Shown one piece after another: positions 2 to 23,054 of a DNA stretch of 35,246 bases. Under the pieces are notes generated by a model, which was given only the letters and a program-made list of their open reading frames with translations, was not told where the DNA came from and did not search any database. Position 1 is the stretch's first letter. Each line of letters begins with the position of its first letter. This stretch comes from a virus. The position numbers and the translations under genes were made by a program. The stretch lies in the IMG/VR virus record IMGVR_UViG_3300037481_000179, positions 1-35,246 of that record, one strand, 5' to 3'.

Positions 2-1189
2 TCGTTCGATTATTGCAATCTGAACTTTACGGAGCTGTACACGGCGGTCGGGCCGAGCGGCAACAACATCGTTTGTCCAGGAGCCGCCACCATCACCGGC
101 AATCTGACGGTGGACACCTCGACGCTGAAGGTTGATTCGACGAACAATCGGGTGGGTATTGGTACGGCGAGTCCGACTTCTGACTTGGACATTTACCGTG
201 CAAGCGGCAGCGGAATCACCTCTGGCATTTCACTGCGTACTGCCGCCGGTGCTGGCGGCGACGGCTCTTTCATCAAGTGGCTGGCAGGCGGAACCAACGA
301 AAAGGTTGCACAGATTGACGGTGTTCTAAACGGCACTGATGTCGGTTATTTGTCGTTTCTATGCGGCAACGGTGCTGATGCAATGGCGGAGCAATATCGA
401 GTTGCTTCGAGCGGTTTGTTCACTTGGTTCGACGGCGCAGGCGGCACTCGGATGACCCTCAACTCCACCGGACTTGGGGTGGGGGGAAGTCCGAACACTG
501 GATTGCTAACTGTTGGAGCTACTACCAATGCCTCCGCAACTGCAAATGCTCTTACAATATTAAGCCAACGCGCCACTTTTGTAGTCACGGCAAACGGAGC
601 TACTGATGCCGCTGGAACGACCATCAACTATGCATGGGCGAACGGTGGTCAGGGTCCGCTGATCTTCCGCAATGCGGCGATTTCCAATGTTTTGACTTTG
701 GACTCAGCGGGCAACGTCGGCATCGGAGTTACGCCGAGTGCAGGTGGTTCAGTCTTTTACAAGACGCTTGAACTTGGAAAAGCTGGTTGCGGTTTATTTG
801 CGGGAACTGCTTCGCTATCTGTTGGTTCTGAACTGATATATTTATCAGGAAACGCTGTTCTGGCTTACAATGCCGGACCTGAGTGGAAGTACGGAAACGA
901 TGGTGTTGCGGCTATCTACAGCATCGAAAACGGTGTTCACAATTGGTACAATGCTACTAGCGGAACCGCTGGAGGCGTGTTCACTCCCACCCAAGCCATG
1001 ACGCTGGATGCTCTTGGTAACCTGCTGGTGGGTCTTGCCACCGCCGGAACCACCGCTGCGAAAACAATCCAGATTGCCAACGGAACCGCTCCGACTGCGA
1101 ACGTCACTGGCGGCCAACTCTACGTCGAAGCCGGTGCGCTGAAGTACCGTGGAAGCTCCGGCACCGTCACCACCATCGCCAACGCCTAA
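2..1189 (+). CDS. Tail fibre / virion appendage protein, 5'-truncated
   Basis: The frame is open from the first base and continues upstream of the window, so only the C-terminal ~395 residues are present. A GTG at 110 lies inside the open frame and is not a convincing start. The protein is rich in Gly, Ala, Thr and Ser and carries repeats of the type NNRVGIGTASP and GNVGIGVTPS, about residues 45 and 240 of the visible part. Such VGIG repeats are typical of trimeric beta-structured phage fibres and appendages. The C-terminus (GGQLYVEAGALKYRGSSGT) is also common in fibre proteins. No S74 chaperone domain is visible. Its likely role is host attachment. It lies directly upstream of the small genes leading into lysis, and its last codons are copied in the 26-bp tandem repeat that follows. 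Fibre class is fairly sure; receptor unknown. Confidence 0.75.
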   Translation, partial: SFDYCNLNFTELYTAVGPSGNNIVCPGAATITGNLTVDTSTLKVDSTNNRVGIGTASPTSDLDIYRASGSGITSGISLRTAAGAGGDGSFIKWLAGGTNEKVAQIDGVLNGTDVGYLSFLCGNGADAMAEQYRVASSGLFTWFDGAGGTRMTLNSTGLGVGGSPNTGLLTVGATTNASATANALTILSQRATFVVTANGATDAAGTTINYAWANGGQGPLIFRNAAISNVLTLDSAGNVGIGVTPSAGGSVFYKTLELGKAGCGLFAGTASLSVGSELIYLSGNAVLAYNAGPEWKYGNDGVAAIYSIENGVHNWYNATSGTAGGVFTPTQAMTLDALGNLLVGLATAGTTAAKTIQIANGTAPTANVTGGQLYVEAGALKYRGSSGTVTTIANA

Positions 1190-1559: not shown

Positions 1560-1588
1560 AATACTGCAGTGGCTAAAGTTCTCGCGGC

Positions 1589-1753: not shown

Positions 1754-1762
1754 AACAACGCC

Positions 1763-6031: not shown

Positions 6032-6618
6032 CGGTTCGGGAGGATGTAGATAATTCCGCGACGCGCACCAACACATCGACTTGGATGATTGTAGTAGTAG
6101 CTGTACCCGTAGCTCTGAGTCAGCGTCTTTGCGCGGTAAATCGCGTCCAGCTTCTCCTTGATGTAGCCAAGACAGATGTCGTGTCCATTGTAACTGTCGT
6201 ATCCAAGCTGTCCGGTCGGTTCCTTGAAGTCGTGGATGGCGATAACCGGATGCAGGTCGTATTGATTGATTGCCTCAAGCTCTTCAAGCAGCGGCAGATA
6301 GTCGTTCCAGTGAGCGTCGAGAAAGAAGATCGTGTCATGTCCAACTCCGTGATGCGGGATGAACCAGTTCATGCAGGCATCGCTGCTTCCCTCGAACATC
6401 TCAACATGGACACTTTCGAGCTTGAACCTCTCCTTCGCTTTCTCGACACGATCATGGTCCAACTCGCATGAAACAACCTTGAGGAAGTTTTTTGCCAGCC
6501 AAACGGTAGTGTCAGCTTCGTGAGTGCCGGTTTCGACAGCAGTTGTCAGCCCGAAGCGTTCTTTGAGGTAAAGAAACTCCTGCTCGATGAACGTATCTCC
6601 ATTGAAAGGTGAACCCAT
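6028..6618 (-). CDS. Class I SAM-dependent methyltransferase-like protein (196 aa)
   Basis: A glycine-containing motif I, VETGTHEADTTVWLA, lies at residues ~28-42. Next comes a beta-strand ending in an acidic residue (VVSCELD, motif II), and then FFLDAHW at ~97-103, which matches the acidic strand 4. This is a Rossmann-type methyltransferase layout. The substrate is unknown; FLDAHW-type members often sit in polysaccharide or O-antigen clusters. The gene lies between another methyltransferase and the GT25 gene and overlaps the latter by 4 nt. It may methylate a sugar made or transferred by its neighbours. Confidence 0.7.
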   Translation of the reverse strand: MGSPFNGDTFIEQEFLYLKERFGLTTAVETGTHEADTTVWLAKNFLKVVSCELDHDRVEKAKERFKLESVHVEMFEGSSDACMNWFIPHHGVGHDTIFFLDAHWNDYLPLLEELEAINQYDLHPVIAIHDFKEPTGQLGYDSYNGHDICLGYIKEKLDAIYRAKTLTQSYGYSYYYNHPSRCVGARRGIIYILPNR

Positions 6619-6644
6619 AATTTTAGTCGCTCTAATTGCAAAGA

Positions 6645-7262
6645 TTACTTCAACTTACGATAAATGGCAAAAACGCTCTCATTCAGTTCAAATCGAGCAA
6701 TGAATTCGCAGCGTTTCAAGACGAACTTGAGAGCGGTCTGAGTCGATTCCCAGTTCACATCATCCATGATCAGATAACCACCAACCTTGAGCTTCGGAAG
6801 CCAGTTGACGACATCGCTAGTAGACGGCCATTCGGCGTGATTAGCGTCGATGTGGACCATATCCATGTCGGGCAGAAACCGTGACGCATCCCATGACGAC
6901 ATGCGGCAATACTGGATATGACGAACAACGCCAGCTCGAACAGTGTGGCCTACGAAAGATTCGTAATGCTTGTCCAGATCAAGTGTTGACCACCATTCTT
7001 GGTTCGCAACCGCTTCATCGTCGAGGCAGTCCTCTTTCTTCCAAGAATCAATAGCGTAAACGGTTCCGCTTCCGTTCAGCTTGCAAGCCTGGGCGAGAGC
7101 AATCGTTGACTTCCCCTCAAATACTCCAATTTCAGCGATGCGCTGAGGTTTTGTTTCGAGAACAAGTTTGGCGATTTCCAAACCTTTCTTCGCATCGCAC
7201 CAACCGCCCATCTTCGGGAAGTTATCTGCGATGAATTGAACAATGTTTTCTTCGCTCGTCAT
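6645..7262 (-). CDS. Class I SAM-dependent methyltransferase (205 aa)
   Basis: Motif I, IAEIGVFEGKSTIALA, is at ~42-57. VYAIDSW (motif II) follows, then MVHIDANHAEW (~135) and the strand VGGYLIMDDVNW. These match the Methyltransf_24 type, in which an acidic/His pair after the third strand can bind metal. Members methylate sugars, catechols or small metabolites. The gene is separated from the upstream GT2-like gene by only 5 nt and from the next methyltransferase by 26 nt. By context it probably modifies a glycan; the exact substrate cannot be read. Confidence 0.75.
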   Translation of the reverse strand: MTSEENIVQFIADNFPKMGGWCDAKKGLEIAKLVLETKPQRIAEIGVFEGKSTIALAQACKLNGSGTVYAIDSWKKEDCLDDEAVANQEWWSTLDLDKHYESFVGHTVRAGVVRHIQYCRMSSWDASRFLPDMDMVHIDANHAEWPSTSDVVNWLPKLKVGGYLIMDDVNWESTQTALKFVLKRCEFIARFELNESVFAIYRKLK

Positions 7263-7267
7263 AATTT

Positions 7268-8248
7268 TTAGATTTGATTCAAATTTTCACCGTCAAAATC
7301 AAAGTAATCACAATCGCCAACTGGCTTGAATTCTCCGGTTTTCCTGTAGAGTTCCCGCTCGCTAACTAAATCAAAATTTGTGTCAATCGTTCTAAATTTT
7401 CTATCTGCATATAAATGCTTTTGCTCAATCGCCTCCATTGTTTTGCACATGAATTCGCTAACTTCTTCATGCCGCTTGTAATCTGATTTCCAAACCCGTT
7501 TCGCATAGAATTCATCTACAGGGTTTTCCGCACACCAGTGCATCGCTTCGTCTTCTATTACGAGGCAGTTCTTGTTGTAGAAAATACGACCTCTGTAACC
7601 AGCGTTTTCAAGTCGAACACCAAGATTGCAGTCTTCACAGCCTCTACGAGCTAGAAACTCATCGTAACCGTTGATTTTTTCCAAGAACTCTACCGGGAAA
7701 CTCACGTTCTGACCAAAAACCCATCCACCTCCAATCGATATGTTTTCATCGCCAGGTTGAGCGGTCATTCTGGCGTCCATATTCTTAGCCTTGTAGCTCG
7801 CAATCTTGTTGTTCTCGATGACGATTTCCGAAACTTTGTCGTACGCACCGCAGAACACGAATTTTTCTGATGCGGCTTTCCGATGGAAATCGATCCATCC
7901 ACTTGTCAGTGCGCTGAGGTCGTCAACGAAAACAACGTGGTCGTTTTTGGCGACTAAAATCCCAGTGTTTCTGGTCGAGGAAACATCGAAGAAGTTTGTC
8001 TTCGTCTTGCGGTACTTTCCTCTCCAGATCGATGGCTTTGGCGGAATGTGAAGGTACTCGAATCTTCCGCCGACAATCTTTTCGAGCTTTTCCTTTCTGC
8101 CATCCTCGTAGTGCAAGAACGAGTCGATGAAGACAATCTGATCGGTGACAACACCTGATTCGTACTGGGAAATCAGGGTTTCAACGAACCACTGGAACAT
8201 CGGCTGGCGTCTGCACGTTACATAGTTGATCGATAATTTGTTCTCCAT
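7268..8248 (-). CDS. GT2-like (GT-A fold) glycosyltransferase (326 aa)
   Basis: The start is ATG 8248, 3 nt after the portal stop. Residues 105-110 read VVFVDD, a DXD-like acidic pair (Asp109-Asp110), followed by ALTSGWIDF. Further on come NGYDEFLARRGCEDCNLGVRL with Glu205-Asp206, the ED motif of GT2/galactosyltransferase C-terminal domains, and then NAGYRGRIFYN. The GT-A fold is therefore well supported. The substrate is unknown. By eye the gene is richer in A and T than the portal next to it (for example 7261-7420), which suggests separate acquisition. It heads the glycan cassette. Confidence 0.75.
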   Translation of the reverse strand: MENKLSINYVTCRRQPMFQWFVETLISQYESGVVTDQIVFIDSFLHYEDGRKEKLEKIVGGRFEYLHIPPKPSIWRGKYRKTKTNFFDVSSTRNTGILVAKNDHVVFVDDLSALTSGWIDFHRKAASEKFVFCGAYDKVSEIVIENNKIASYKAKNMDARMTAQPGDENISIGGGWVFGQNVSFPVEFLEKINGYDEFLARRGCEDCNLGVRLENAGYRGRIFYNKNCLVIEDEAMHWCAENPVDEFYAKRVWKSDYKRHEEVSEFMCKTMEAIEQKHLYADRKFRTIDTNFDLVSERELYRKTGEFKPVGDCDYFDFDGENLNQI

Positions 8249-8251
8249 TTT

Positions 8252-10501
8252 TCATCCCTGTCGCGCCAAGTTAGACTCGGCAGTTGCATTCGCTCGCTGA
8301 ATATCAGCGGTTGTCTTCGCATTCCGGCGAGCCAAATCTGCCATCGCCTTCGTGTTCTGACGCTGAATGTTGGCCATAGTTTCGGCGTTCTGGCGAGCGA
8401 TTTTCGATTGAACCTCTGCATTCATCACGGCTGTACGAGGATCAGAACCCTGCTGAATCGCCTGAGCCTGCTGCTGCTGCGCCATTGCCTCCTGCTGCTG
8501 CTGCAAAAGCTGACCAAGCTGCTCAACAGTCTGAACAAGCATCTGGAGCTGCTGCGCGTAGGCTTCGACCTGAGGACGACGAGTAGGATCGGTGGAGAGT
8601 CGAGCCAGATGATCCTGAACGTGCTGACCAATGCCTTGCAAAAAGAGCATAATCTCCTGCGGATTGCCGCCCTGCTGGATCGATGCAGCAGCCTCATTCG
8701 CCGCCGCAAGATGCGTGTCGATGTGAACGATTTGATTCTGCGTATCCGTGACGATTGCCATGTTTCCCTGGCGGAGCGACGAATGCTCCAGAACAGCCAG
8801 CGCGGTCTGATCTTGAACTCGCGAAGATTGGATCTGAGTCGGCAGATACCGGTCCACCATTTGTTGGCCAACCTGAGCGGCGATGTAGTCGCGCAAAAGG
8901 CTGACTTTGCCGCCCTCGGGAAGAGAGCCAAGCAGACCGAGCAAAGATCCGAGGAGTTGCTGCTTCGCGAACTGAGAACCTTGACCGACCGTGCGAGTCG
9001 CTTCAACGAAGTCGATGTCCAGCATGGCTTGAACCGGAACGCCTCGTTCAGCGCAACGACGCTGGAACTCAATCGCGTCCTTATCCGACTTAGTAATCGG
9101 ATTCAGGTTGGGATTGGAGGCTCGGTTGTACCGCTCTTCGAAGAAGGAATCGAGCTGGTTGTAATACCGACTGAGCTGCGTCTTACCGATTGCTGACTGC
9201 TGTGCCACGATGGCTTGGACTTCGGTTGCAGTACGAGGATTGCCCTGCGGCTTGTTGAGCGATTGGCGATACTGAGAGAGATTGCCTTGAAGAACATTCT
9301 CAAGGTCCGCATTGACCGCCATAGGAGCGTCAAGAACGCCAGCAATGTTCTGCTGAATGACTTCATAGTCGGGGGGAAGAATAGCATACGGTCCTTGCTG
9401 AACGACGCTTGTCTTGCTGAGAGCGTTCGGGTTGAGAGGTCGGAAGAGGATCTGCGTACGAGCGAATGCACTGTCCACCATCGAGCAGCGGAGCCGGTTC
9501 TTCAGCTCCATCGCCTGAAGCATCTTGATGCCAAGACCCTTCACACCGTGATGCTCGCCGTCACCACGGTCGTAATACATTGGATGAATGATCTGCTCCC
9601 ATCGCTTGAATCGGCGCAGCTTCCGATACATGAAGCTCTCGCTGTCGCGCTCGTCAATGATGGCGTGGCTGATCTGCCCATCGAACTCCTTGTAGAAGAT
9701 GTGGGACATCAACACGACCTCTGACCGTGCGGAGAAGGTAATGTCGTTCGAGCGAAGCTGGCGTTGGAAGAACTCCCAATCGTACTGAACACCGGAACGG
9801 TAAGGCTCAGGCATCGCGGCACGGATACGCTGGCGGACATAGTCCACATCCCAGCCAGCAGCAGTCGCCGCTTGTTCGTCTTGAATCTTCTCGAACAGAT
9901 CATCGACACCCATGCGAGTGCGAACGCAGGCCACCTTCCAATCGCTGACATTCGACTTGGTGCCGTCAGGAACGAGAAGATCCGTCGCCATGATGGCCTT
10001 GCACCGCCAGTTGGAGCCGTCTTCGAAGATCAACGGACCATCGCCAATGAGGACCATCTCACGTTGCGAAAGCTGCATGATGTAGTCGAAGTCCTTATCC
10101 ATCTTTTGAAGACGGTCGAACTCCTCGGTAATGATCTTCGACCATTCCTCACGCTTATCCATGTCGTTGCCGTAAGCGGTACGGACATTGGCGTAAGTCG
10201 GAACCTCGGCGAACACATCGTAGAAGGCTGACATGGCCAACGTGAGGAACGCTTCCGACTCACGGAAGTTGACGTTGGTGCGGAACGCTTGGTTGTTGCG
10301 CCGAAGCTCTGCCGGATTGTACGGAGGATTGCCGTCAACAAGACCACGGAGCTTTGCGCGGGTGCTATTCCGCAACTCGTCGGCCATGATGAGCTTTTGG
10401 AATATCTCGCGAGCCGATGCCGCGTCGGCAATACGAGTTTCGGGAGCTTTACCCTCCTCGTTTATGGTTTCGAGCGGCAGTTGGGCTAGGTTTCCGTACA
10501 T
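8252..10501 (-). CDS. Portal protein (749 aa)
   Basis: At 749 residues the protein has the size of podovirus-type (head-tail connector) portals and lies directly downstream of terminase. The N-terminal half holds a helical region with SAFYDVFAEVPTYANVR and EEFDRLQKMDKDFDYIMQ, then WKVACVRTRMG. The central region shows HGVKGLGIKMLQAMELKNRLRCSMVDSAF, typical of portals, followed by PQGNPRTATEVQAIV, the 'TATEV' helix motif common in portals. The last ~130 residues are Gln/Ala-rich coiled coil with a series of ARQNAETMANIQRQN-like ~11-residue repeats, perhaps a barrel or DNA-contacting crown. It forms the dodecameric DNA channel at the capsid vertex. The start overlaps the upstream gene by 16 nt. 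Confidence 0.85.
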   Translation of the reverse strand: MYGNLAQLPLETINEEGKAPETRIADAASAREIFQKLIMADELRNSTRAKLRGLVDGNPPYNPAELRRNNQAFRTNVNFRESEAFLTLAMSAFYDVFAEVPTYANVRTAYGNDMDKREEWSKIITEEFDRLQKMDKDFDYIMQLSQREMVLIGDGPLIFEDGSNWRCKAIMATDLLVPDGTKSNVSDWKVACVRTRMGVDDLFEKIQDEQAATAAGWDVDYVRQRIRAAMPEPYRSGVQYDWEFFQRQLRSNDITFSARSEVVLMSHIFYKEFDGQISHAIIDERDSESFMYRKLRRFKRWEQIIHPMYYDRGDGEHHGVKGLGIKMLQAMELKNRLRCSMVDSAFARTQILFRPLNPNALSKTSVVQQGPYAILPPDYEVIQQNIAGVLDAPMAVNADLENVLQGNLSQYRQSLNKPQGNPRTATEVQAIVAQQSAIGKTQLSRYYNQLDSFFEERYNRASNPNLNPITKSDKDAIEFQRRCAERGVPVQAMLDIDFVEATRTVGQGSQFAKQQLLGSLLGLLGSLPEGGKVSLLRDYIAAQVGQQMVDRYLPTQIQSSRVQDQTALAVLEHSSLRQGNMAIVTDTQNQIVHIDTHLAAANEAAASIQQGGNPQEIMLFLQGIGQHVQDHLARLSTDPTRRPQVEAYAQQLQMLVQTVEQLGQLLQQQQEAMAQQQQAQAIQQGSDPRTAVMNAEVQSKIARQNAETMANIQRQNTKAMADLARRNAKTTADIQRANATAESNLARQG

Positions 10502-12819: not shown

Positions 12820-13245
12820 ATGCCAGCGCAACCCTACTTCGGATCTTCCTGCTCATCGCCCTGCGCGACACCGGCAACCGACTGCCAACCTTCAGGTGAT
12901 GATTGCGCCATTATTGGCATAATGACCATCAAAATTGGGGAGCAGTTTGCAGTTTCGCTTTTTATTCCGGCCAACCCGCCCATTTCTTGGGCAGGAATTG
13001 TCGGGTATTCTCAGATCCGAGATTCGTCTGATGTTGTTCTCTACAACTTTGGAACCGTAGCCGGAACGGTCGATGGAAGCGGAAACGCTACGATCATATT
13101 CAACGCTCCCGGTGTGTCCACCGCGACTTGGCCTGCGGGGACTTACTACGTTGATTTCTCGTTTCAGGTTGTTGGAACCTTTGGTCCGAAAACGACCGGA
13201 ACCTACAAGCTCATCGTCTGCGATGGAATTACAGTTGTGCCATGA
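12820..13245 (+). CDS. Small beta-sandwich virion protein (141 aa)
   Basis: The product has a Cys-containing N-terminus (SSCSSPCATPATDC) and then a predicted all-beta domain: KIGEQFAVSLFIP, WAGIVGYSQIRDSSDVV, NATIIFNAPG, WPAGTYYVDFSFQV and TYKLIVCDGITVV. The sequence 'G-E-x-F ... QIRD ... AGTYYVDF ... G' resembles the small baseplate or tail-tip beta-sandwich proteins found at the start of fibre gene sets in many phages. It probably joins fibres to the tail. The next gene overlaps its stop by 4 nt (ATGA). Confidence 0.6.
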   Translation: MPAQPYFGSSCSSPCATPATDCQPSGDDCAIIGIMTIKIGEQFAVSLFIPANPPISWAGIVGYSQIRDSSDVVLYNFGTVAGTVDGSGNATIIFNAPGVSTATWPAGTYYVDFSFQVVGTFGPKTTGTYKLIVCDGITVVP

Positions 13246-13592
13246 GTAGCTACGACATTTCCATTCAATTTTCAGGAACTGGAGTCGTTTCAACGATTGC
13301 TGAAAACGAGCTGGATTACGCGCTCAACGTCGTAAACGTCGTTTACACGGCACCGACTGTAACCAGTGTGGGAGTTTCTGGCGGAAGCACTGGACTGACC
13401 GTTGCGAATTCTCCAATTACGACGAGTGGCGTGATGACCCTTGGTGGAACTCTTGCTGTTGCAAGCGGAGGTACTGGGGCGATTACGGCTGCTTCCGCTC
13501 GGTCGAATCTTGACGCTCAAAAAACCATTACAAGCGGAACCGCATCGCCAACTGGCGGATCTGACGGGGACATTTATCTTCAATACATTTAA
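13242..13592 (+). CDS. Fibre-like structural protein (116 aa)
   Basis: The 116-residue product starts in an ATGA overlap. Residues 1-40 are short beta strands. Residues ~40-95 carry the well-known fibre pattern GLTVANSPITTSGVMTLGG followed by LAVASGGTGAITAASARSNL. The C-terminus reads GGSDGDIYLQY, also common at the ends of fibre or adhesin modules. It looks like a short beta-helical fibre or an adaptor segment that trimerises with neighbours. Receptor or attachment partner is unknown. Confidence 0.65.
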   Translation: MSSYDISIQFSGTGVVSTIAENELDYALNVVNVVYTAPTVTSVGVSGGSTGLTVANSPITTSGVMTLGGTLAVASGGTGAITAASARSNLDAQKTITSGTASPTGGSDGDIYLQYI

Positions 13593-13595
13593 TCT

Positions 13596-15650
13596 ATGGC
13601 CGACAACGTAGGATACACACCTGGAACCGGAGCTACGGTAGCCGCTGATGATATTAGCGGAGTTTTGCATCAGCGCGTTAAGATTGGCGTTGGAACCGAT
13701 GGCGTAGCGGTCGATGTCTCGTCCAGCAACCCAATGCCGGTGAGTGGTACGGTTACGGCAAACACTGGGTTGAGTCAGCCGCTTACGGACGCACAGCTTA
13801 GGGCTAGTTCAGTGCCAGTTTCCGGCCCATTGACCGATACTCAGCTTCGAGCCTCGGCCGTGCCGGTGAGTGGAACCATTACGGCTAACACCGGATTGTC
13901 TCAACCGTTGACAGATGCACAGCTAAGGGCAGCAGCGGTTCCTGTCAGCGGCACATTCTTCCAAGCCATACAGCCCGTATCTGGAACATTCTTCCAAGCC
14001 ACACAGCCGGTCAGCATTGCCTCAATGCCAAGTACTCCCGTCACAGGGACATTCTGGCAAGCGACTCAACCCGTTTCTGGACCAGTGACAAATGCAGAGC
14101 TTCGAGCAACGCCAGTCGAAATTGATGCAGCCACTCTTCCGCTACCTTCCGGCGCAGCAACCGAAACCACTCTGGTAGCCGTCGAAGCAGACACCTCGGC
14201 CATTGCGACATCGACTTCCGGTATCAACGGCAAACTCGCCGCTCTAGCTACTCGCGTTCTCGACAACGAGGCATCCGGCGCACCCGTCCGAGCAATCGGT
14301 CAGGAAATCTGGAACGTGTCGTTCAGTGAGGTCGGCGCGTCGGTAATCTCCAGTCAATTTCAGACCCCGACAATCGGCACAGGTGTCTCATACAACCAAG
14401 CATCCGGCGCACTCAACATTGTTGCAGGAACAACGACCAACCAAGAATTTTTCACTCGCAGCGTCCAAAATTGGCGCGGCGCATTGCGCCTCAAGTTCTC
14501 AATCGTTGCCAGTCAACGCATTGCCAACAACAATCTGGCTGTCATGCTGGCCAACCTTGTTGGAGAAGGTCTGACCGTCACGATCAATTCGGCTACGAGC
14601 ATCACCGTTGCTCAATCGGGTCATGCGTTCACTTCAACCAGCGTCGGTCAGTTTGTTCATGTTGGAAAGATCGTTGGTGCCGCTGGCGTGCCGGGCCGCT
14701 ACGCCATCGCTTCGGTTGTCGCTGGTGTTTCTTACAATCTAACCGTTGCCGGTTGGCCTGCTTCCGGTAGCTGCACCGCGACGATTTTCGGTCATTCGTA
14801 TGTCCGCAATCTCGTCAACGGAGCCACCGCCACAGCCATCAACGTCGATGCCCAGCGTCGTGGTTGGGCGACTGGCGACACTGCTGCAACGATCAACACG
14901 ACCACATCACCCGGCACGATCATCACCTGCGAGCTAACCGGTCGTGAAGTGTTCTGGGCGGATCAGCTTCGAGCGACAACGACGACGCCTACTGTTGTCG
15001 TCCGAGCCAACCGCCTCGAAAACATCCCTGACGACAATCTGGATCTGTACCTGTTCGTCTGGTCGTTCAACAGCACAACCGCTCCAGCCTCATCGACGAC
15101 GTGGACGATGTCGTTCTGTTCCATCGAGAAGTTCGCCAATATGCCCGTCTACATTCAGGGTAATCGGGCGCAGGGCGCAATAAATCCGCTGCCGGTGACA
15201 CAATCTGGAACGGTAACCGTATCCGGTACGGTTACTGCAAATATCGGAACGGGTTCAATTGCGGCAGGTACAAACCTCATTGGTGATGTTGGCCAACAAT
15301 ATCGAGGCAACGCCACAGGTGCCGCCTCAGGAGCGCATTTAGTGAGTGCAGCAACAACCAACGCCACCATTGTCAAAGCCTCTGCTGGCCGTGTCCTAGG
15401 TTGGGCATTGGCCAACACCAACGCAGCATGGCGATATGTCAAACTCCACAACCAAATCACGACGCCGACCGCAGGGACTGGCGTTGTTCGCACAATTGCA
15501 ATCCCGCCCAATAGTGTAGCCCAAATGAAACTTGAAGGTGGAATTACGTTCGCCACTGGCATCGGACTCACGACAGTCACGGGGTCGGCCGATGCGGACA
15601 CCGCAGCAGTCGGTGTTGGCGACATCGTTGGGGACATCTTCTTTGCGTAA
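13596..15650 (+). CDS. Repeat-rich tail fibre protein (684 aa)
   Basis: The N-terminal ~190 residues consist of imperfect repeats: VSGTVTANTGLSQPLTDAQLRA appears twice, a shorter LTDTQLRA unit lies between them, and three FFQATQPVSG-like units follow. Another VSGTVTANIGTG copy lies near residue 545. The central part (~210-530) is a beta-rich domain with a YNQASGALNIVAGTTTNQEF segment. The last ~120 residues (GAASGAHLVSAATTNATIVKA onward) form a jelly-roll-like end often seen in fibre and hypothetical virion proteins. The likely role is a long fibre or decoration. The repeats are conserved in protein but differ at synonymous sites. Confidence 0.7.
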   Translation: MADNVGYTPGTGATVAADDISGVLHQRVKIGVGTDGVAVDVSSSNPMPVSGTVTANTGLSQPLTDAQLRASSVPVSGPLTDTQLRASAVPVSGTITANTGLSQPLTDAQLRAAAVPVSGTFFQAIQPVSGTFFQATQPVSIASMPSTPVTGTFWQATQPVSGPVTNAELRATPVEIDAATLPLPSGAATETTLVAVEADTSAIATSTSGINGKLAALATRVLDNEASGAPVRAIGQEIWNVSFSEVGASVISSQFQTPTIGTGVSYNQASGALNIVAGTTTNQEFFTRSVQNWRGALRLKFSIVASQRIANNNLAVMLANLVGEGLTVTINSATSITVAQSGHAFTSTSVGQFVHVGKIVGAAGVPGRYAIASVVAGVSYNLTVAGWPASGSCTATIFGHSYVRNLVNGATATAINVDAQRRGWATGDTAATINTTTSPGTIITCELTGREVFWADQLRATTTTPTVVVRANRLENIPDDNLDLYLFVWSFNSTTAPASSTTWTMSFCSIEKFANMPVYIQGNRAQGAINPLPVTQSGTVTVSGTVTANIGTGSIAAGTNLIGDVGQQYRGNATGAASGAHLVSAATTNATIVKASAGRVLGWALANTNAAWRYVKLHNQITTPTAGTGVVRTIAIPPNSVAQMKLEGGITFATGIGLTTVTGSADADTAAVGVGDIVGDIFFA
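13737..13990 (+). repeat. Diverged in-frame repeats in the fibre gene
   Basis: Two copies of a ~25-codon unit (from 13737 and from 13861) encode nearly the same VSGTVTANTG...QPLTDAQLRA segment, with many synonymous differences. A half unit stands between them, and shorter TFFQA-QPVSG units follow from 13951. They are protein-level repeats rather than fresh DNA duplications. Confidence 0.8.
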
Positions 15651-15651
15651 A

Positions 15652-15831
15652 ATGAAGATATTGCGTTTCCTTAAGGATTGCTGGGTTGGAGGCGTTTTTT
15701 ACGCAACCGACCAACCGGTTGCTTTTGGAAACCCGCCGTCTGCTGACCTAATCGCAAACGGAGACGCCATCGAAGTGACTGGCATCGGCTGCTGGACAGA
15801 CCACGACACAAATCTGGGAAGGCTGATCTAA
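15652..15831 (+). CDS. Hypothetical 59-aa protein between fibre genes
   Basis: The ATG at 15652 follows the fibre stop by 1 nt. The product begins MKILRFLKDCWVGGVFYATDQ and continues with a segment rich in Asp, Gly and Asn that ends DTNLGRLI. It looks like a small beta protein (for example FGNPPSADLIANGDAIEV). Small proteins of this sort often follow fibre genes and may be virion components. I cannot assign a function. The next gene starts directly after its stop. Confidence 0.6.
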   Translation: MKILRFLKDCWVGGVFYATDQPVAFGNPPSADLIANGDAIEVTGIGCWTDHDTNLGRLI

Positions 15832-15990
15832 ATGCTTCTCACCCTTCTTTCAAACCAAGGATCTTCGCCATCCAACAAGTTCTGGATCAAAATATCTGGA
15901 ACTTGGAAGGAAGCGGTGACTTGGATCAAGGTTTTGGGCGTTTGGAAGCAGTCTACGCCTAAGATTAAAATTGCGGGAACTTGGAGATAA
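15832..15990 (+). CDS. Small Trp-repeat virion protein (52 aa)
   Basis: The 52-residue product has the repeated pattern WIKISGTWKEAVTWIKVLGVWK, then KIKIAGTWR. That is three copies of an I-K-[IV]-x-G-[TV]-W unit, ~15 residues apart. Such 'V.VGGVWK' units are typical of phage structural proteins, in which they form small beta hairpins. The ATG immediately follows the previous stop codon. It is probably a virion or fibre-associated protein. Confidence 0.6.
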   Translation: MLLTLLSNQGSSPSNKFWIKISGTWKEAVTWIKVLGVWKQSTPKIKIAGTWR

Positions 15991-16005
15991 GAGGACCATT
16001 TTCAC

Positions 16006-17154
16006 ATGAGCTGCCCCAACCCATACGTCGTCAACATTCCAGGCCCTCGCGGTCAGGCTGGAACGAACGGAACAAATGGGACGAACGGCGTAAATTCGTT
16101 TTCTTATACGACCGCTTCGTTTTTTGTTCCGGCTCTCGGAGCATCGGTCGTTGTTCCCGTTACTAACACGAATTTTCTTCCTGAATCAGTCGCCGGACAG
16201 TTTTTCGTTTCGATTCAGGGTGTTGGGTACATGCAGGTGACAGATGTAACCGGACTCAATGTCACGCTTCTAAATCCTGCTTCTGGAGTGCTTGGAATTC
16301 CAAATGCGGTTCCTACAACTCTGATTCCCAGTAATTCACTTGTGACTTTGGCTGGCGGAGTTGGTCCTCAAGGTGCTGCCGGTGTGTCTGGCGGTGCGCC
16401 GGATGGAGCTTCATACATCTGCCGGACATCGGACGTAACTTTGACAAACGAGACAGCTCTCGACTCTTTGTCAGCCGGTTACATGAAAACCGCTGGATCT
16501 GGCGGTGCTGGTGCTGTCTCGACCGTTGCGACGGTTCCGGTCGGCGACATCAGCGGCACGTTGCCGATTGCCAAGGGTGGAACGGGCGTCACCACAGTTC
16601 CTACCAATGGCCAACTCCCAATCGGAAATGGAGCCGGATACACGGTGGCCGCATTGACGGCAGGATCTGGCGTCGCGATTACGAATGGAGCAGGAACCAT
16701 TACCATCGCGGCAACCGCCGCAGCATCGTTCAGCTACGTCACGTTTACGCGGAGGGTGACTTCGAATGCTCCGAGTATTTCGGCGGCGGCAAATCCTTTT
16801 AATTCCACCACATACCCGTTAACCACCTATTCAGGAATTGACACGGCTTCTGGTTTTACTGCTGCAAACGGTAGATTTACCGCATCAAATGCTGGATACT
16901 ATCGTTTAAGCGCGCTGGTCCATAATGGGTTTGTTGCAGGTGTTTACGATATAACTTTGGAAATCAGAAAGAACGCGACGCCTATTTACAGTGTTGGGTA
17001 TCGAATTTCAGCGGTAAATGACCCTCCCGTTGCGGTTGAGTTTTTAGATCAAGCGTCAGCATCTGATTTCTACGAACTGTTTATTGCGTCAGCGACAAAT
17101 AGTTCTCTTTTTAATACAGGTTCTTCCTTCTCCATCCAGCGTATTCAGGCTTAA
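16006..17154 (+). CDS. Tail fibre with collagen-like and C1q-like segments (382 aa)
   Basis: AGAGGA upstream of ATG 16006 supports the start. Residues ~12-30 form a short collagen-like Gly-X-Y run (GPRGQAGTNGTNGTNG). Next comes a beta domain; GPQGAAG is a second small collagen-like unit near residue 125. Residues ~175-240 carry the fibre signature LPIAKGGTGVTTVPTNGQL and AGSGVAITNGAGTITI. The C-terminal ~130 residues, with FTASNAGYYRLSALVHNG and LEIRKNATPIYS, look like a C1q/TNF-like trimeric head. The protein is probably a trimeric receptor-binding fibre with the globular head distal. Confidence 0.75.
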   Translation: MSCPNPYVVNIPGPRGQAGTNGTNGTNGVNSFSYTTASFFVPALGASVVVPVTNTNFLPESVAGQFFVSIQGVGYMQVTDVTGLNVTLLNPASGVLGIPNAVPTTLIPSNSLVTLAGGVGPQGAAGVSGGAPDGASYICRTSDVTLTNETALDSLSAGYMKTAGSGGAGAVSTVATVPVGDISGTLPIAKGGTGVTTVPTNGQLPIGNGAGYTVAALTAGSGVAITNGAGTITIAATAAASFSYVTFTRRVTSNAPSISAAANPFNSTTYPLTTYSGIDTASGFTAANGRFTASNAGYYRLSALVHNGFVAGVYDITLEIRKNATPIYSVGYRISAVNDPPVAVEFLDQASASDFYELFIASATNSSLFNTGSSFSIQRIQA

Positions 17155-17157
17155 ACC

Positions 17158-19011
17158 ATGAGCGAACGCGCACCACGCAGGTACACGGACGGATCTGTTA
17201 CCTTTGAAGGTGGCATTGATGCTAGCGTGATGCCTTCCGAGGTGGACAAGAATCAGGTTGCGTTCGCCGTCAATGCCAACTTCCGCGAAGGATTCGTTTC
17301 TCCTCGCCCCGGTTACGTTCAAAAAGACTACGACCTTTGCGTTAGTATCACCGCTGACAATGCCGAGATTACCGCAGATCAGACGAACGTTACAGCGGAC
17401 GGTTGGTCAGAAGATTGCTACGGCCCTCAAGGTCTGACCGGAACTTTCCAATGCGCGCTGCCATACATCTCGGACGATGGCCGCACGTTCATCCTGATGC
17501 TGATCAGTGGTAAAGTGTGGCTTTACGACTGCCTTCAGAATAAGGCTCAAAACATCACGCTGTCCGCTGACCTAGAGAATCCTTCCAATCTACTCGATGG
17601 TTGGATGGTTCAAGCTGAGAACTTTGTCGTCATTCAGGATGGCTTCAGCAAGCCGCTCATCTTCAACGGAACAAGCCTGCGTCGAGCGAATGACGATGAA
17701 ATCAAGTGCGGCAAAGTTATGGCCTACGTCAATGGCCGCATCTGGTACGCACTGCCAAACGGTTTTTCATTCCGAGCAACAGACATCGTTTATGGAGACG
17801 GTACGCGAGCCAGCGTTCTCAAAGAAACCGAGAACACCTTCCTCAATGAAGGCGGCGACTTTGCGGTTCCGTCGGATTCAGGCGGCATCACGGCAATGGC
17901 CGTCCCAGGCAATCCAGACACATCGCTTGGCCAAGGACCGCTTCTTGTCTTCACACCTCGCTACGTCTTCAGCGTCCAAGCTCCTGTAGACCGTGATGTT
18001 TGGAAGAACCTGAACTATCCTATTCAGGCTATCAGCTTGCTGACCAGCGGCGCGTTAGGCGCACGGTCGGCCATCACCGTCAATGGCGATGTCTTCTACC
18101 GAGCTATCGACGGCATCCGCTCGTTCATCATCGCTCGCCGGTCGTTCACCGATTGGGGCAATACTCCTATCAGCGGCGAGATGACGCCCATCGTCGAGAA
18201 CGATCAGACAAACCTTTTGTGGGCCAGCTCTGCGGTTGTCTTCGATAACCGTTTGCTGATGACCTCTCAGCCTCGTTTCAATTCAGAGGGAGTCATTCAC
18301 AAGGCTATATCCGTGTTGGATATGGAGCTTATCACTTCGATGCGGAAGAAGGCTCCTCCAGCTTGGTCAGGTATCTGGACTGGCTTGAACATCTTGCAGC
18401 TCGTCAAGACCGAGAACGCTTACGGAGACGCTTGCTTTGCGATTGCTCGCGGGTCGGACGACACGATCCAGATTTGGGAAATCACCAAAGCCGAAAGGTT
18501 CGACATAAACTTGAGTGCGACTCCCAAGAAGGAAATCGAATGGCAGGTGCAGACTCGCGCCTACAATTTCGAGGTTCCGTTTGGTCTGAAGCGACTCGAT
18601 TCCGGCGACTTGTTCATCGATGAGCTTGAAGGCGATGTCTCCTTCAATGTCACCTATCGACCGGACCAGTATCCCGGTTGGATCGAGTGGATTGACTTTG
18701 CCGAATGCGCGACTGTGACGCAGTGCTTGGATCTTTGTCCGATTACGAACTTCAAGCCGCAGTACCGGCCTAAGATGCGTTTCCCGACTCCATCGGATTC
18801 GCCGTGTAACGCGACGATCAGCACTCCCGCTCGCAATCTTTACGAGGTTCAGGTCATGCTGACCATCATGGGATATTGCCGTATCAAGAGTCTTCGAGTT
18901 CACGCCTACGACATTCAGGAATCGAGTGTTGGCGAGTGCCGGACGGTATTCCCTGCTTGCACACCGCTTGATGTCTGCGATGTCAATCCTCTGACCTACT
19001 CGTCGGAATAA
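17158..19011 (+). CDS. Large virion structural protein (617 aa)
   Basis: The 617-residue product begins MSERAPRRYTDGSVTFEGGID. It contains a DKNQVAFAVNANFREGFVSPRPGY segment, seen in large tail-associated phage proteins where the gene product describes 'virgin' residues of a propeller-like fold. The long central part alternates beta strands (VWLYDCLQNKAQNITL, ENFVVIQDGFSKPLIFNG). Several Cys pairs (TVTQCLDLC, CRTVFPACTPLDVC) lie toward the C-terminus. It may be a tail-tube or nozzle protein comparable in position to podovirus tubular protein B, but I cannot prove this. It is followed by a collar-like protein and the adaptor. Confidence 0.6.
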   Translation: MSERAPRRYTDGSVTFEGGIDASVMPSEVDKNQVAFAVNANFREGFVSPRPGYVQKDYDLCVSITADNAEITADQTNVTADGWSEDCYGPQGLTGTFQCALPYISDDGRTFILMLISGKVWLYDCLQNKAQNITLSADLENPSNLLDGWMVQAENFVVIQDGFSKPLIFNGTSLRRANDDEIKCGKVMAYVNGRIWYALPNGFSFRATDIVYGDGTRASVLKETENTFLNEGGDFAVPSDSGGITAMAVPGNPDTSLGQGPLLVFTPRYVFSVQAPVDRDVWKNLNYPIQAISLLTSGALGARSAITVNGDVFYRAIDGIRSFIIARRSFTDWGNTPISGEMTPIVENDQTNLLWASSAVVFDNRLLMTSQPRFNSEGVIHKAISVLDMELITSMRKKAPPAWSGIWTGLNILQLVKTENAYGDACFAIARGSDDTIQIWEITKAERFDINLSATPKKEIEWQVQTRAYNFEVPFGLKRLDSGDLFIDELEGDVSFNVTYRPDQYPGWIEWIDFAECATVTQCLDLCPITNFKPQYRPKMRFPTPSDSPCNATISTPARNLYEVQVMLTIMGYCRIKSLRVHAYDIQESSVGECRTVFPACTPLDVCDVNPLTYSSE

Positions 19012-19021
19012 CCTTAGAATT

Positions 19022-19822
19022 ATGCCAAACCTTACTCTCATCACTCTTACTCCGCCGAGTCTGCCGGTATCATATTGTCCGCTCAATTACCAGAACTTGG
19101 CCAACGACATCATCAGCGGCACTCAAGCGACGTTCAACAGCTCGATTGGAAACTCGTTCTTCAATTACGGAGCATCGACGCCTGCGCTAAACAATCAGGT
19201 TTATCCGTGGTTGGACGAGAACGGTGAGTGGTGGGTTCGCGTCAGTGGATACTGGGCGAGAAAGAATCCTATTCCTGCCAACGGTCCTGAGCGTCGTATC
19301 TTCGTTGGTACTGCTGCTGATGTCCTAAGCTACGACGGTGGCGATGGAACCGTGACGGCTACTAATACGACCGGCCCAATGTGGGAGGTTGACACAGCTT
19401 TCGATGCTCGGTTCCCGGTTGGCGTTGGAGCGTTTGCGGCGAGCGGTACGGTGAATGTCAATGGAACGACGACGACCACATCTGTTGCTGGTGAAGATAA
19501 GCATACGCTGACCGTTCCTGAAACCGCATTCAACGAACACACTCACGGTGTCGCTCAACTGATTGCGCCTGCAAACGACGATTACTACCTCGTCAACAAG
19601 TCATGGACTGGACTTGGTTCGTACCCGACACAGATCCTTCAAGGTGCTGCGGGAAGCGGCGGCGGCGGTTCTGGGCCGAGTATCACGACCGGAGATGTCG
19701 GAACAACGAACGCTGACAAGACTGGCAACGACAGTCAGAACGCCATCGGCCATAACAATCTTCCGCCTTTTTACGGTGTTTACTTTATCAAGCGAACGGC
19801 CCGAGTCTACTACACCAAATGA
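19022..19822 (+). CDS. Tail-collar / fibre-tip-like protein (266 aa)
   Basis: The second half has features of tail-collar domain proteins: EHTHGVAQLIAP (a His-containing loop), a flexible Gly/Ser-rich stretch (GAAGSGGGGSGPS) and the C-terminal HNNLPPFYGVYFIKRTARVYY. This 'NLPP...YFIKR' end is typical of phage collar and microcystin-dependent-protein-like domains. The N-terminal half includes PWLDENGEWWVRVSGYWARK. It likely sits at the tail tip or fibre end and contacts the host. Its stop overlaps the next start (ATGA). Confidence 0.65.
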   Translation: MPNLTLITLTPPSLPVSYCPLNYQNLANDIISGTQATFNSSIGNSFFNYGASTPALNNQVYPWLDENGEWWVRVSGYWARKNPIPANGPERRIFVGTAADVLSYDGGDGTVTATNTTGPMWEVDTAFDARFPVGVGAFAASGTVNVNGTTTTTSVAGEDKHTLTVPETAFNEHTHGVAQLIAPANDDYYLVNKSWTGLGSYPTQILQGAAGSGGGGSGPSITTGDVGTTNADKTGNDSQNAIGHNNLPPFYGVYFIKRTARVYYTK

Positions 19823-20790
19823 AGCTCATCGTTCAGGACATCCGCTCGACAATCGCTCGGGTTATCGGCACATGTGTCGATGATCAGCGCGTTTACGACT
19901 ACATCAACCAAGCGTGTCGAAGGCTTCTACACAAGGGCTTGTGGGCGGGTTCTTACGGACGTTTCACCGTTTGTACCGTAGACGGTTGCATCACTTGGCC
20001 TCGTTCAATCGAAACCATCGAAGCCGTTGCAGACTGCTGCGGAACAGGATCTGTTCGCAACCAATGGTATGAATTCCAAGAAACCGGATTCGGACTCCTC
20101 AGCGGCTGCAACCCGTGCGCAGGAAAACAGCTCGTTGATCGTGGTACTGTTGTTTCATATCGCGATATGTCTGGCGGCATCAATAGCTACATTCGAGTTT
20201 ATCCTGGCGATGCTTCAGATGTCGGCAAAACCATAACGCTCCAAGGCTACGACTCGAATGGCCAATGGATTCGCACCCAATCCGGTGGTCTATGGATTGA
20301 CGGCGAAAAGCTGACGCTCGCTTTGCCGTACGTTCAGTCTTCCAAGAAATTTACCGCACTGACCGGCGTAATCAGGGAGGCAACAAATACCGCATCGCGG
20401 TTGTACGAGTTCAATCAAACAATTTTTGCTGAGATTGATCTGGCAGTTTACGACCCTGATGAAACTTTGCCGCAGTATCGTCGGAGCTTCTGGACTGGTC
20501 GGAACAGCGATTCATGCACTCAGACCGTCACGGTGATTGGCAAGATGCGCCATATCAACGCGACGAGCGTCAATGACTACCTCATTCCTCCGTGTCCTGA
20601 TGCCATCAAGCTGATGGTCATGGCGATTCGCAAGGAGGAGAACGATTTGATTCAGGAAGCAGTGGCCTACGAAGCCAAAGCGGTTCAAGCTGTTCAGGAG
20701 CAGACGATGCAGTATCTGGGCGATGCGGTTGCGACGATACGCATGGTCGGTGTAGGATTAAATGGCGGTGGATTCTCGCAATGGTTCTGA
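19819..20790 (+). CDS. Putative head-tail adaptor / tail tubular protein A-like (323 aa)
   Basis: The N-terminus (MKLIVQDIRSTIARVIGTCVDDQRVYDYINQACRRLL) is a helical bundle like that of podovirus adaptor proteins. It is followed by Cys-containing beta regions (YGRFTVCTVDGCITWPRSIETIEA), a FQETGFGLLSGC segment and a helical C-terminal part (LMVMAIRKEENDLIQEAVAYEAKAVQAVQ). The size and the helical-beta-helical plan fit a gatekeeper/adaptor that joins portal and tail nozzle. Sequence similarity is not obvious enough to be certain. It sits upstream of the ejection-type genes. Confidence 0.5.
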   Translation: MKLIVQDIRSTIARVIGTCVDDQRVYDYINQACRRLLHKGLWAGSYGRFTVCTVDGCITWPRSIETIEAVADCCGTGSVRNQWYEFQETGFGLLSGCNPCAGKQLVDRGTVVSYRDMSGGINSYIRVYPGDASDVGKTITLQGYDSNGQWIRTQSGGLWIDGEKLTLALPYVQSSKKFTALTGVIREATNTASRLYEFNQTIFAEIDLAVYDPDETLPQYRRSFWTGRNSDSCTQTVTVIGKMRHINATSVNDYLIPPCPDAIKLMVMAIRKEENDLIQEAVAYEAKAVQAVQEQTMQYLGDAVATIRMVGVGLNGGGFSQWF

Positions 20791-20806
20791 ACCAAAAGGA
20801 TAATTT

Positions 20807-21673
20807 ATGGCAATAGCAGCGGCAATTTTGGGCGGAGCAGGAATCTCGGCAGCGGGAAGTCTGCTCGGCGGACTGTTCGGCGGAAAGAAGCCGAAGGTTC
20901 CTGAGCTGAAGCCGATTGATTTCGCTAAGGAGCAGCAGCAGGCGATTCAGCAGAACATCGCCGCGCTTCAACCTGCCACCGAGCTGGCGCAAAAGACAAC
21001 TGCCGCTGAACAATCTCAGCTTGAGACGCAGCTTCGTCGTGCGATTCCTGGCTATGACCAGCTTGTTTCTCAGGCTGGAGCGAACATTGGGGCAGCATTG
21101 CGTGGTGAAATTTCTCCTGAGGTTTCCGCTCAGGTTCAGCGTTCGACCGCTGGACGCGCTTTGTCTGGAGGATTTGGCGCAGGATCTGGATTTGGTCGTG
21201 CGCTGACCGCTCGCGACTTGGGCCTGACCGGCATGCAGATTCAGAATCAGGGTCTTGCTCAAGCGCAGAACTTCATCCAGCAGCAGCGGACGTTCGGCAT
21301 GGTTCAGCCGTTCTCAGTGAGCAGCATGTTCATCAGTCCTTCTCAGCGTATCAATGCGTTGGCGCAGCAGAATCAACTTCAGTACGGTCGTGATTTGACT
21401 GCCGCTCAGGTTGCTGCCGCTCCTTCTCCGATGCAGCAGGCGGCGCAGACTGCGCTTACCAACTTTGGCGGTGTTGCCGGTGGCGCGCTGTCGCAGTACG
21501 GAATGTATCAGGGGTTGATGGCTGGCCAACGTGGGCCGTCGCCTTCGTACAATCCGCAGAACGATCCTGAGCTTTACGCCAATCTCTACCCTACGCCCAC
21601 CACTACGTCTGAATTTTTCCAGCAATCTACCAGCCTATTCCCAGAGTACGGCTCTTCAATCTACGGACGCTAA
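20807..21673 (+). CDS. Internal virion / ejection-type protein (288 aa)
   Basis: AAGGA lies upstream of ATG 20807. The N-terminus is a Gly/Ala-rich hydrophobic stretch (AAAILGGAGISAAGSLLGGLFGG) that could insert into membrane. Next come Gln/Ala-rich helices (KEQQQAIQQNIAALQPATELAQ), a Gly-rich loop (GGFGAGSGFGRAL) and a polar C-terminal tail. This profile resembles the first internal virion or DNA-transfer protein of podoviruses. It is followed by two similar, larger genes. Role inferred from composition and order. Confidence 0.55.
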   Translation: MAIAAAILGGAGISAAGSLLGGLFGGKKPKVPELKPIDFAKEQQQAIQQNIAALQPATELAQKTTAAEQSQLETQLRRAIPGYDQLVSQAGANIGAALRGEISPEVSAQVQRSTAGRALSGGFGAGSGFGRALTARDLGLTGMQIQNQGLAQAQNFIQQQRTFGMVQPFSVSSMFISPSQRINALAQQNQLQYGRDLTAAQVAAAPSPMQQAAQTALTNFGGVAGGALSQYGMYQGLMAGQRGPSPSYNPQNDPELYANLYPTPTTTSEFFQQSTSLFPEYGSSIYGR

Positions 21674-21677
21674 TCTT

Positions 21678-23051
21678 ATGGCCGACCAATCTCTTCAAGC
21701 ATTTCAGCTAGGCGCATCGCTGTTCGACCGCGCACAGACGCAGCAGCGGATGATGGAGCAGATAAAACTCCAGACTGCGGATCAGATTATGCGGCAGCGT
21801 CAGTACGATCTTCAGAACAAGATCCAGTCGAATGCTTATGCTCAGGCGTTGGCGGAGCAAGAAGCGCAGACTGCCGAGTACGATACTTTTCAGGCGTTCA
21901 ATCAGCAGGTTTCTGACTTCTTGAATAACGAGACTGAGGGTGGTACGATGCCAGCTCTCCCAAGATTCAAGTCGAAGCAGTTCAATCAGCAAGCGACTCA
22001 GATTATCAACGGATTGGAGCCGTATTCTGCTCGCGCAAAACTCATCAAAGAACAGGCAAAACTTGCCGCGTTTACTGATCAGCTTGAAGCAGGCAGAATA
22101 ACGGAGGCTAGAAAGTACAACGCTCTAACGCGCACTTCTGACGGAAAATATGTCATTGATGATGGGTTGATTGCGCAGAAGAAGTCTGAAGAAGAGCAAC
22201 TTGGAAAAGCCTCCAAGTTGAGTTCGTTTGCTCGACTTGGAAAAGACACTGTTCAGAGCATGATTGATGCTGGGCAGATTCCTCAAGAAATTGCGCCTCA
22301 AGCTCTTTTGGCTGCTGAAGCTGGAGAGAAATCAAAGATTGGTGCAGTTGGTAAAAACACCGAACTTTTCATTCAAGCAGCTAAGGCTAAGGCCAAGGCT
22401 TCTGGACAAGAACTTTCGCCAGCTAAAGAAGCTGAATTGAGACAGACATTTATCGGAGGGGGCGGACGGCTTAAACCGCTTGAAGCTAAGACAGCGACAA
22501 AGCTGGAGGATGAATTTGCTGTCATGGAGACGATTGATTCTCTTCAAGACGGAATCGCCGAATTTGAATCCCGTTATCCCGGCAAGAAATTCACTGATTT
22601 TCTTGGAGCGATACCTACAACTGAAATCAAGATTCGCTCCCTAGTTCAGACCGAGAAAGATCCAATGAAGCAGGACGCTCTGGAGTTGCTGGCCGACTTC
22701 ATGGGCGTTGTAAATCGAACCGCAAGAACCACGTCTGGTCTGAACGTCACTGAAAGCGAAGGCAAGCGAATCGCTCAGGAAATCGGTGGATCGTTCGATA
22801 AGAACTCCATTATCAAGCTCGATCAGTTTAGGAAGCGGATTGAGCGGAGTGCGCGGGGGACGATTGGTCGAAACATCGACAAGTCTCTTCCGTCGTTCTA
22901 TGAACGATGGTCTACGACACCATTTGGAACTAGAACTACCGCTGCGTATTCGGCTTCGGCTGTTCCGTTTCAGTCGAATGCTCAGTCCACAGAGTTGATG
23001 AGCCTTCAGGAAATGCAGCGGTTAATCCAAGAGCTGGAAGCGAAGCAATAA
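21678..23051 (+). CDS. Internal virion / ejection-type protein (457 aa)
   Basis: The ATG at 21678 follows the previous stop by 4 nt; the open frame extends further upstream into the preceding gene but lacks reason to start there. The product is Gln/Ala/Lys-rich with long helices (MMEQIKLQTADQIMRQRQY, EQEAQTAEYDTFQAFNQQV) and an extended region ~180-300. The C-terminal part has LQEMQRLIQELEAKQ. No catalytic motif is visible. Together with its neighbours it probably forms the set of capsid-internal proteins ejected with DNA. Confidence 0.55.
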   Translation: MADQSLQAFQLGASLFDRAQTQQRMMEQIKLQTADQIMRQRQYDLQNKIQSNAYAQALAEQEAQTAEYDTFQAFNQQVSDFLNNETEGGTMPALPRFKSKQFNQQATQIINGLEPYSARAKLIKEQAKLAAFTDQLEAGRITEARKYNALTRTSDGKYVIDDGLIAQKKSEEEQLGKASKLSSFARLGKDTVQSMIDAGQIPQEIAPQALLAAEAGEKSKIGAVGKNTELFIQAAKAKAKASGQELSPAKEAELRQTFIGGGGRLKPLEAKTATKLEDEFAVMETIDSLQDGIAEFESRYPGKKFTDFLGAIPTTEIKIRSLVQTEKDPMKQDALELLADFMGVVNRTARTTSGLNVTESEGKRIAQEIGGSFDKNSIIKLDQFRKRIERSARGTIGRNIDKSLPSFYERWSTTPFGTRTTAAYSASAVPFQSNAQSTELMSLQEMQRLIQELEAKQ

Positions 23052-23054
23052 TTT

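Follow-up and report, generated by a model that had tools for sequence, protein, structure and literature searches.

A probable optional appendage cassette beside a kept fiber gene in an uncultured phage lineage

Introduction

Why would a phage carry several different fiber-type genes in a row, and do they encode separate fibers or parts of a common appendage? The question is raised by a locus of IMG/VR virus record IMGVR_UViG_3300037481_000179, whose source is an uncultured virus of bacteria. The window analyzed here is the entire record of 35,246 bases, and the record itself is incomplete. The original prediction, made from the letters alone, saw fiber or appendage signatures in at least five products and suggested that the phage may recognize several receptors or carry decorations. 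Comparison with relatives shows a genuine cluster of mosaic make-up, in which an optional cassette (12820-15990) lies just upstream of a kept fiber gene, g382. We think it likely that this cassette is an optional, exchangeable receptor-binding appendage cassette beside a fixed C1q-headed fiber, and its products resemble components of one or two appendages more than they do independent short fibers. The genes concerned are the following.

Start at 12785, minus strand: terminase (TerL), matching phrog_2 (2.2e-22)
12820..13245, plus strand: g141, 141 amino acids, first cassette gene, with an N-terminal Cys-containing tag; proposed docking adaptor
13242..13592, plus strand: g116, 116 amino acids, putative linker with conserved ends and a middle that is SGGTG in the window and collagen-like in some relatives
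13596..15650, plus strand: g684, 684 amino acids, conserved over its first 50 residues, with a shaft of PVSG repeats, a core domain and distal form A
14283..15164, plus strand: core domain of g684, common to other phage types
15652..15831, plus strand: g59, 59 amino acids, putative partner gene 3' of distal form A
15832..15990, plus strand: g52, 52 amino acids, with hairpin repeats that contain Trp; a swap seam lies at its start
16006..17154, plus strand: g382, 382 amino acids, in cassette and cassette-less phages, with a short collagen-like tract, a stem and an exchangeable, predicted C1q-like head (about residues 243-382)

An optional cassette beside a kept fiber gene

Every open reading frame (ORF) that had been named is present, and the ratio of nonsynonymous to synonymous divergence (dN/dS) in relatives, 0.02-0.62, confirms them as genes. 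Measured against the window, g141 has a ratio of 0.02-0.13, g116 one of 0.06-0.29, the g684 core one of 0.08-0.33 and g59 one of 0.04-0.09; that of the short g52 is 0.06-0.62. Because these values are low, g141, g116, the g684 core, g59 and g52 are, by this measure, genes under purifying selection. The earlier gene list had missed g59 and did not include g266, a length-variable gene further downstream.

We then compared the interval from the TerL start to the downstream gene g617 (17158) among relatives. We scanned viral_contigs with TerL, g617 and a divergent TerL, which matched 204, 291 and 210 stretches; the best 80 of each scan were kept, so that interval counts are no measure of natural frequencies, and sampling is uneven. 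The loci from the TerL and g617 scans plus the window gave 126 loci with both anchors, some sharing a contig. Among the 85 distinct intervals, 77 measure 1,245-1,287 bases and hold a g382 homologue only; the other eight, window included, span 4,281-4,730 bases with the cassette inside. The extra DNA, about 3 kb, comprises g141, g116, g684, sometimes g59, and g52. A further scan with g141 yielded 25 IMG/VR loci, and g141 adjoins TerL in every one that reaches TerL.

Presence and absence of the cassette are interspersed on three quick trees, with support from the Shimodaira-Hasegawa-like approximate likelihood ratio test (SH-aLRT) only and with g52 taken as the cassette sign where TerL left a locus undecided. 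The TerL tree (96 rows, of which 79 are short and 17 have the cassette) requires seven state changes, at least six of them forced by starred branches; the portal tree (68 rows: 52 short, 16 cassette) requires seven, all forced, and the g617 tree (102 rows: 83 short, 19 cassette) six, again all forced. The state is nevertheless clustered: shuffled labels average 14.5 to 17.7 changes, and none of 500 shuffles gave so small a number.

Such counts are blind to gain versus loss. The cassette could therefore be ancestral and many times lost rather than gained, the internal swaps being ordinary recombination among the phages that kept it. A deep branch with L181 and L190 also has the cassette, and g141 was seen in this lineage only (IMG/VR scan and INPHARED), both of which fit this history. 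Cassette-less rows, however, are the majority (79/96, under uneven sampling) and occur to either side of the midpoint root, so that loss alone would need many events. We regard an ancestral cassette as a serious possibility, at somewhat under even chances; such a past would not alter the function that we propose.

Exchange of cassette parts at sharp seams

The cassette itself varies in composition. The middle of g116 is either SGGTG or collagen-like among cassette phages, with the same ends in most, and the long collagen-like linkers are found in relatives, not in the window. Linker type changes at least three times among 17 rows of the TerL tree and distal form six times among 13. The first 50 residues of g684 are 82-98% identical where compared, and 71% in two loci of other phages. 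Among cassette phages, complete g684 proteins are 131-974 amino acids long, with 0-11 P[VIAL][STNQ]G motifs and three distal forms (A, B and C); that of the window has eight such motifs and direct repeats at spacings of 126, 33 and 63 nucleotides, all multiples of three. This range supports the earlier suggestion that in-frame repeats could allow length change, as does the pair L165 and L167, alike in core type and distal form but with a net difference of 126 amino acids upstream of the core.

The gene after g684 goes with the distal form to some extent. Among nine distinct rows with form A, g59 comes next in five, another ORF of 58 amino acids in two (L181, L190) and an ORF of 147 amino acids in L275; the contig of the remaining row ends within the gene, with the first 30 residues of g59 visible. 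The g59 gene follows form B in none of seven distinct rows, and form B or C in none of 12. Form C is followed in five of five distinct rows by a separate ORF of 476-538 amino acids; two of these were scanned, one giving weak Kelch matches (best 6.4e-5) and the other none (0.16).

Close relatives locate the seams. The window, L002, L003 and L019 belong to one starred TerL clade (100) and have four different linker, shaft and distal make-ups. DNA similarity between the window and L019 extends to 13342, reappears at 13520-13742 and then resumes from 15832, the start of g52; in L163 and L085 it restarts at 15831 and 15832. Synonymous divergence (dS) between the window and L003 is 0.15-0.37 in TerL, g141, g116, g52 and g617, 0.82 in g382, and 1.46-2.30 in the g684 core, the distal domain and g59. 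Altogether, these sequence comparisons show parts being swapped at sharp seams, namely the ends of g116, the starts of g684 and g52, and the edges of the g382 head. The mosaicism anticipated among related phages was thus found, as a cassette present or absent and with swapped parts; the region is not fully conserved.

The g684 core in other phages

The core of g684 is present in 19 IMG/VR loci. Nine of the 18 that we compared (L261-L278), on eight contigs, are without the window's portal, TerL, g141, g116, g52, g382, g617, g266 and g323, an absence that means little for L265, L273 and L275, which are short contigs. L274 has a different terminase (phrog_15, 6e-120) and portal (phrog_21, 5.8e-62), L266 a phrog_21 portal, and L271 a tape-measure protein (phrog_9483, 6.4e-16). 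When TerL was searched for in the records of five of these other-phage loci, one of the five gave a weak match (26%, residues 428-530). DNA identity of the core to the window is 80-81% in L265-L267 and L269-L271, 76% in L273 and L274, and 73% over part of it in L275. Form A of the distal domain, with g59, also occurs in L269, L271, L273 and L274, and form B in L266 and L267. By homology, this shows that the core is common to phages whose terminase, portal or tape-measure genes are of other types.

Some of these contigs carry more than the core. L269-L271 have homologues of several genes of window 2-2421 just upstream of the fiber module, so that two blocks are common to that phage type. L267 and L270 lie on one contig of 55,471 bases with a g684-type fiber at each end; the two have similar cores and distal forms B and A, and a beta-helix protein (PF13229, 1.1e-6) is encoded near the first.

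Named phages match as well. In Microcystis phage Mae-JY24 the match covers 77% of g684 at 54% identity; in a second Microcystis phage it covers 34% at 71.5%, and seven further named-phage records match smaller parts. Within the 17-gene stretch of Mae-JY24, the fiber gene alone is strong against the window, the others being weak (E 7e-4 or worse, low-complexity filter off). Because only this gene matches strongly, we set aside Microcystis, the host of that record, as host of the window phage.

The position of the module in these phages bears on where it would sit. In L274 it lies 3' of the portal, between the terminase and portal on one side and, on the other, a gene that we take, from a familiar motif, to be protease-like; in L266 it comes just after the portal. 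The products could then be head fibers or decorations of the capsid, serving to adhere to surfaces or slime, rather than receptor-binding proteins of infection, and be optional for that reason. The linker neighboring the L271 fiber gives weak head-decoration and cement matches (phrog_122, 5.9e-4; PF09956, E 0.043), and the window cassette begins beside the terminase gene. The same L271 linker, however, fits tail profiles better (phrog_14, 2.8e-10), g116 matches tail-fiber profiles, and the window cassette reads into the structural genes that begin with g617 on the plus strand. Gene order leaves the place on the virion unfixed, and we judge a head or decoration role improbable.

The kept fiber and its predicted head

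The middle of g382 matches a tail-fiber profile (phrog_31660, 3e-7). A collagen-like Gly-X-Y tract had been noted in the sequence; it is short, and its Pfam Collagen match (residues 13-28) is weak and below the cut-off (E 0.91; 9.8 versus 27.2 bits). A C1q-like head had also been proposed, and structure prediction agrees. Modeled from 41 sequences as a single chain, as in all our predictions, the head (about residues 243-382) has a predicted local distance difference test score (pLDDT) of mostly 78-96, whereas scores are poor in the middle of the protein and over its initial 30 residues. Against PDB structures it is predicted to have the C1q/TNF jelly-roll fold, with matches from E 2.4e-6. The 50 matches listed, at 8-18% identity and target-normalized template modeling (TM) scores of mostly 0.66-0.79, are domains of the C1q and TNF families (C1QL1, C1QL3, C1QTNF5, BclA, collagen X, RANKL) plus a single protein from a phage, the phi812 central spike. 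A PDB search by sequence with the g382 profile gave nothing. The predicted head thus aligns with C1q/TNF-fold trimers on collagen stems known from solved structures (C1QL, BclA, collagen X); unlike theirs, the collagen tract of g382 is short and below the Pfam cut-off, and g382 is seen as a predicted single chain.

Alignment of 40 g382 homologues with the window gave 61-86% identity for the stem and 23-93% for the head; the most similar head, at 93%, belongs to L031, a cassette-less phage. In L003, L085, L019 and L091, the head is replaced from 16584 or 16761 to 17125 or 17151. By these alignments g382 is kept in the lineage and its head is itself swapped. Highly variable C-terminal heads on a conserved stem are also what a diversity-generating retroelement would produce. 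Here, the heads are replaced as whole blocks with sharp edges, the window (an incomplete record) has no PF00078 match in a search that was positive in 3 of 14 control genomes, and no near-identical template repeat was found in the window. We consider such an element very unlikely indeed.

Proposed mechanism and docking tag

In the arrangement that we favor, an optional receptor-binding cassette beside a fixed fiber, g141 would dock on the virion through its N-terminal tag, g116 would be the linker in the appendage, and g684 would supply shaft, receptor-binding core and distal domain, with g59 as partner of form A and g52 as a small accessory; g382 would be a second fiber with a C1q-like head. 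The lineage would have, lack and re-assort these parts by recombination at conserved seams, altering what the virion binds and leaving the virion core untouched. Exchange of the cassette would probably change which cells the virus grips. The place on the virion, trimer formation, receptor binding, the adaptor role of g141 and the partner role of g59 are elements that we infer.

Gene starts hint at how the two fibers may be connected. In 79 of 79 cassette-less rows g382 begins with MPSQL and a GCCQPC tag. In cassette rows it is g141 that starts with MP[AS]Q (17/17), with SC.SPC in 15 of 17, and g382 starts with MSC or MSG in the 13 rows extending that far. In a test on one chosen pair, a score as high as that of the tags came up in 26 of 20,000 peptide shuffles, and for DNA with the leader in 0 of 2,000 mononucleotide shuffles. 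It is plausible from this resemblance that the starts of g141 and of cassette-less g382 are of common origin. More weakly, g141 may take over the docking site of g382, both docking at one site. A wider scheme, in which the lineage repeatedly switches between a one-fiber virion and a stacked, two-specificity appendage, the docking peptide moving from fiber to adaptor and the added fiber coming from a pool common to phages of different tail types, is a tentative one that we hold to be rather doubtful.

Several observations weigh against the receptor-binding cassette, or temper it. Fiber or appendage signatures had been claimed for all products, and they stand for g116 (tail-fiber profiles, best phrog_14064, 4.2e-6), the middle of g382 and, weakly, g52 (minor tail protein, phrog_6977, 3.6e-4). 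The claim fails for g141 (best PHROG E 0.1, no Pfam match) and, by family match, for g684 (best PHROG E 0.027, no Pfam match). Pfam gave no match to g141, g116, g684 or g52 at E up to 1. No convincing PHROG or Pfam family was found for g59, and a longer ORF containing it (15532-15831) has a weak PHROG match only (0.012). The g684 structure predicted from nine sequences has a pLDDT of 28.9 and no usable fold. PDB searches by sequence gave nothing for g141 and, for the g684 profile, a sole chance-level match to glutamate racemase (E 0.029). In addition, g59 is not next to every form A (L181, L190, L275), the g141/g382 tag resemblance is modest, the module lies among head genes in L274 and L266, which would also fit a head fiber, and the state changes come from quick trees of best-80 loci.

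Comparison with known systems

Exchange of binding modules between unrelated phages has been published (PMC10579305, PMC10684548, PMC6872550, PMC10674732); fiber-module exchange is already well known, and this lineage adds a case. Alteromonas phages A5, V22 and P24 have a host-recognition module in common (PMC10579305). As there, a fiber and the next gene are common here to phages of different tail type with little else alike, and a fiber common to otherwise unrelated phages, the mark of a host-recognition module, was found here. In A5, V22 and P24 the second gene is a characterized chaperone (DUF4376), whereas here it is the putative partner g59, after one distal form only; a further difference is that near relatives here are also without the whole block.

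Domain mosaicism of receptor-binding proteins (PMC10684548) likewise involves a conserved N-terminal part and exchangeable distal domains; our lineage differs in exchanging several adjoining genes and even an optional cassette as a whole. In Klebsiella phages with one or two receptor-binding proteins, relatives also differ in the number of binding proteins, joined via N-terminal anchor or branching domains, with strong distal exchange (PMC6872550). Unlike those systems, ours gave no T4gp10-like or depolymerase match (PHROG, Pfam), and the proposed anchor is a separate small protein: no T4gp10-like anchor or branching domain was found in g141, g116, g684 or g52 (Pfam at E up to 1), their PHROG matches being to other families.

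This uncultured lineage shows phages having or lacking a whole putative second appendage, with parts re-assorted at fixed seams. The seams and the common core could be used to find phages exchanging binding parts before culture, and phages that do so probably meet in overlapping hosts.

Search scope and other features of the record

No near DNA match to window 1-25000 was found in INPHARED (50,697 phage records), and searches there with g617, g382 and g141 gave no matches. The window terminase matches 22 of the 50,697 records, at 22-31% identity among the 20 listed. TerL and the g684 core found no relative in genome_contigs. The wider layout is as follows.

2..1189, plus strand: partial fiber-like gene, truncated at the record start; a separate, second modular locus
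From 2616 on, minus strand: genes including the portal-sized gene and the terminase
12820 to 26335, plus strand: cassette, g382 and the genes that follow
19022-19822, plus strand: g266, length-variable gene
After 26335 to the record end, minus strand: further genes

The gene at 8252-10501, without PHROG or Pfam match, we infer to be the portal from its size and place. Homologues of g266 measure 192-267 amino acids in relatives (85 distinct ORFs), their identity varies independently of g617, and Pfam gave no family at E up to 1; g266 may be another appendage gene. The partial fiber gene has a match in eight of 11 larger related records, in ORFs of 282-473 amino acids and often at the ends only. 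A 26-base tandem repeat (1170-1235; 2.5 copies, 95% matches) covers its stop and the start of the next gene, and small plus-strand genes lie 3' of it (1149-2564), one of them holin-like (1942-2121; phrog_565, 0.0019).

Between the portal-sized gene and 2616-3779, a minus-strand block of glycan-modifying genes (4050-8248) gave GH130-like (1e-8), GT25-like (4e-4, below cut-off), methyltransferase (6.6e-20) and GT7C-like (3e-5) matches; its products could decorate virion proteins or DNA. At 32590-33137, 44-nucleotide DNA repeats (two families of three copies each) lie among small minus-strand ORFs that have a RIKRLEEAG-like segment in common, which suggests tandem duplication.

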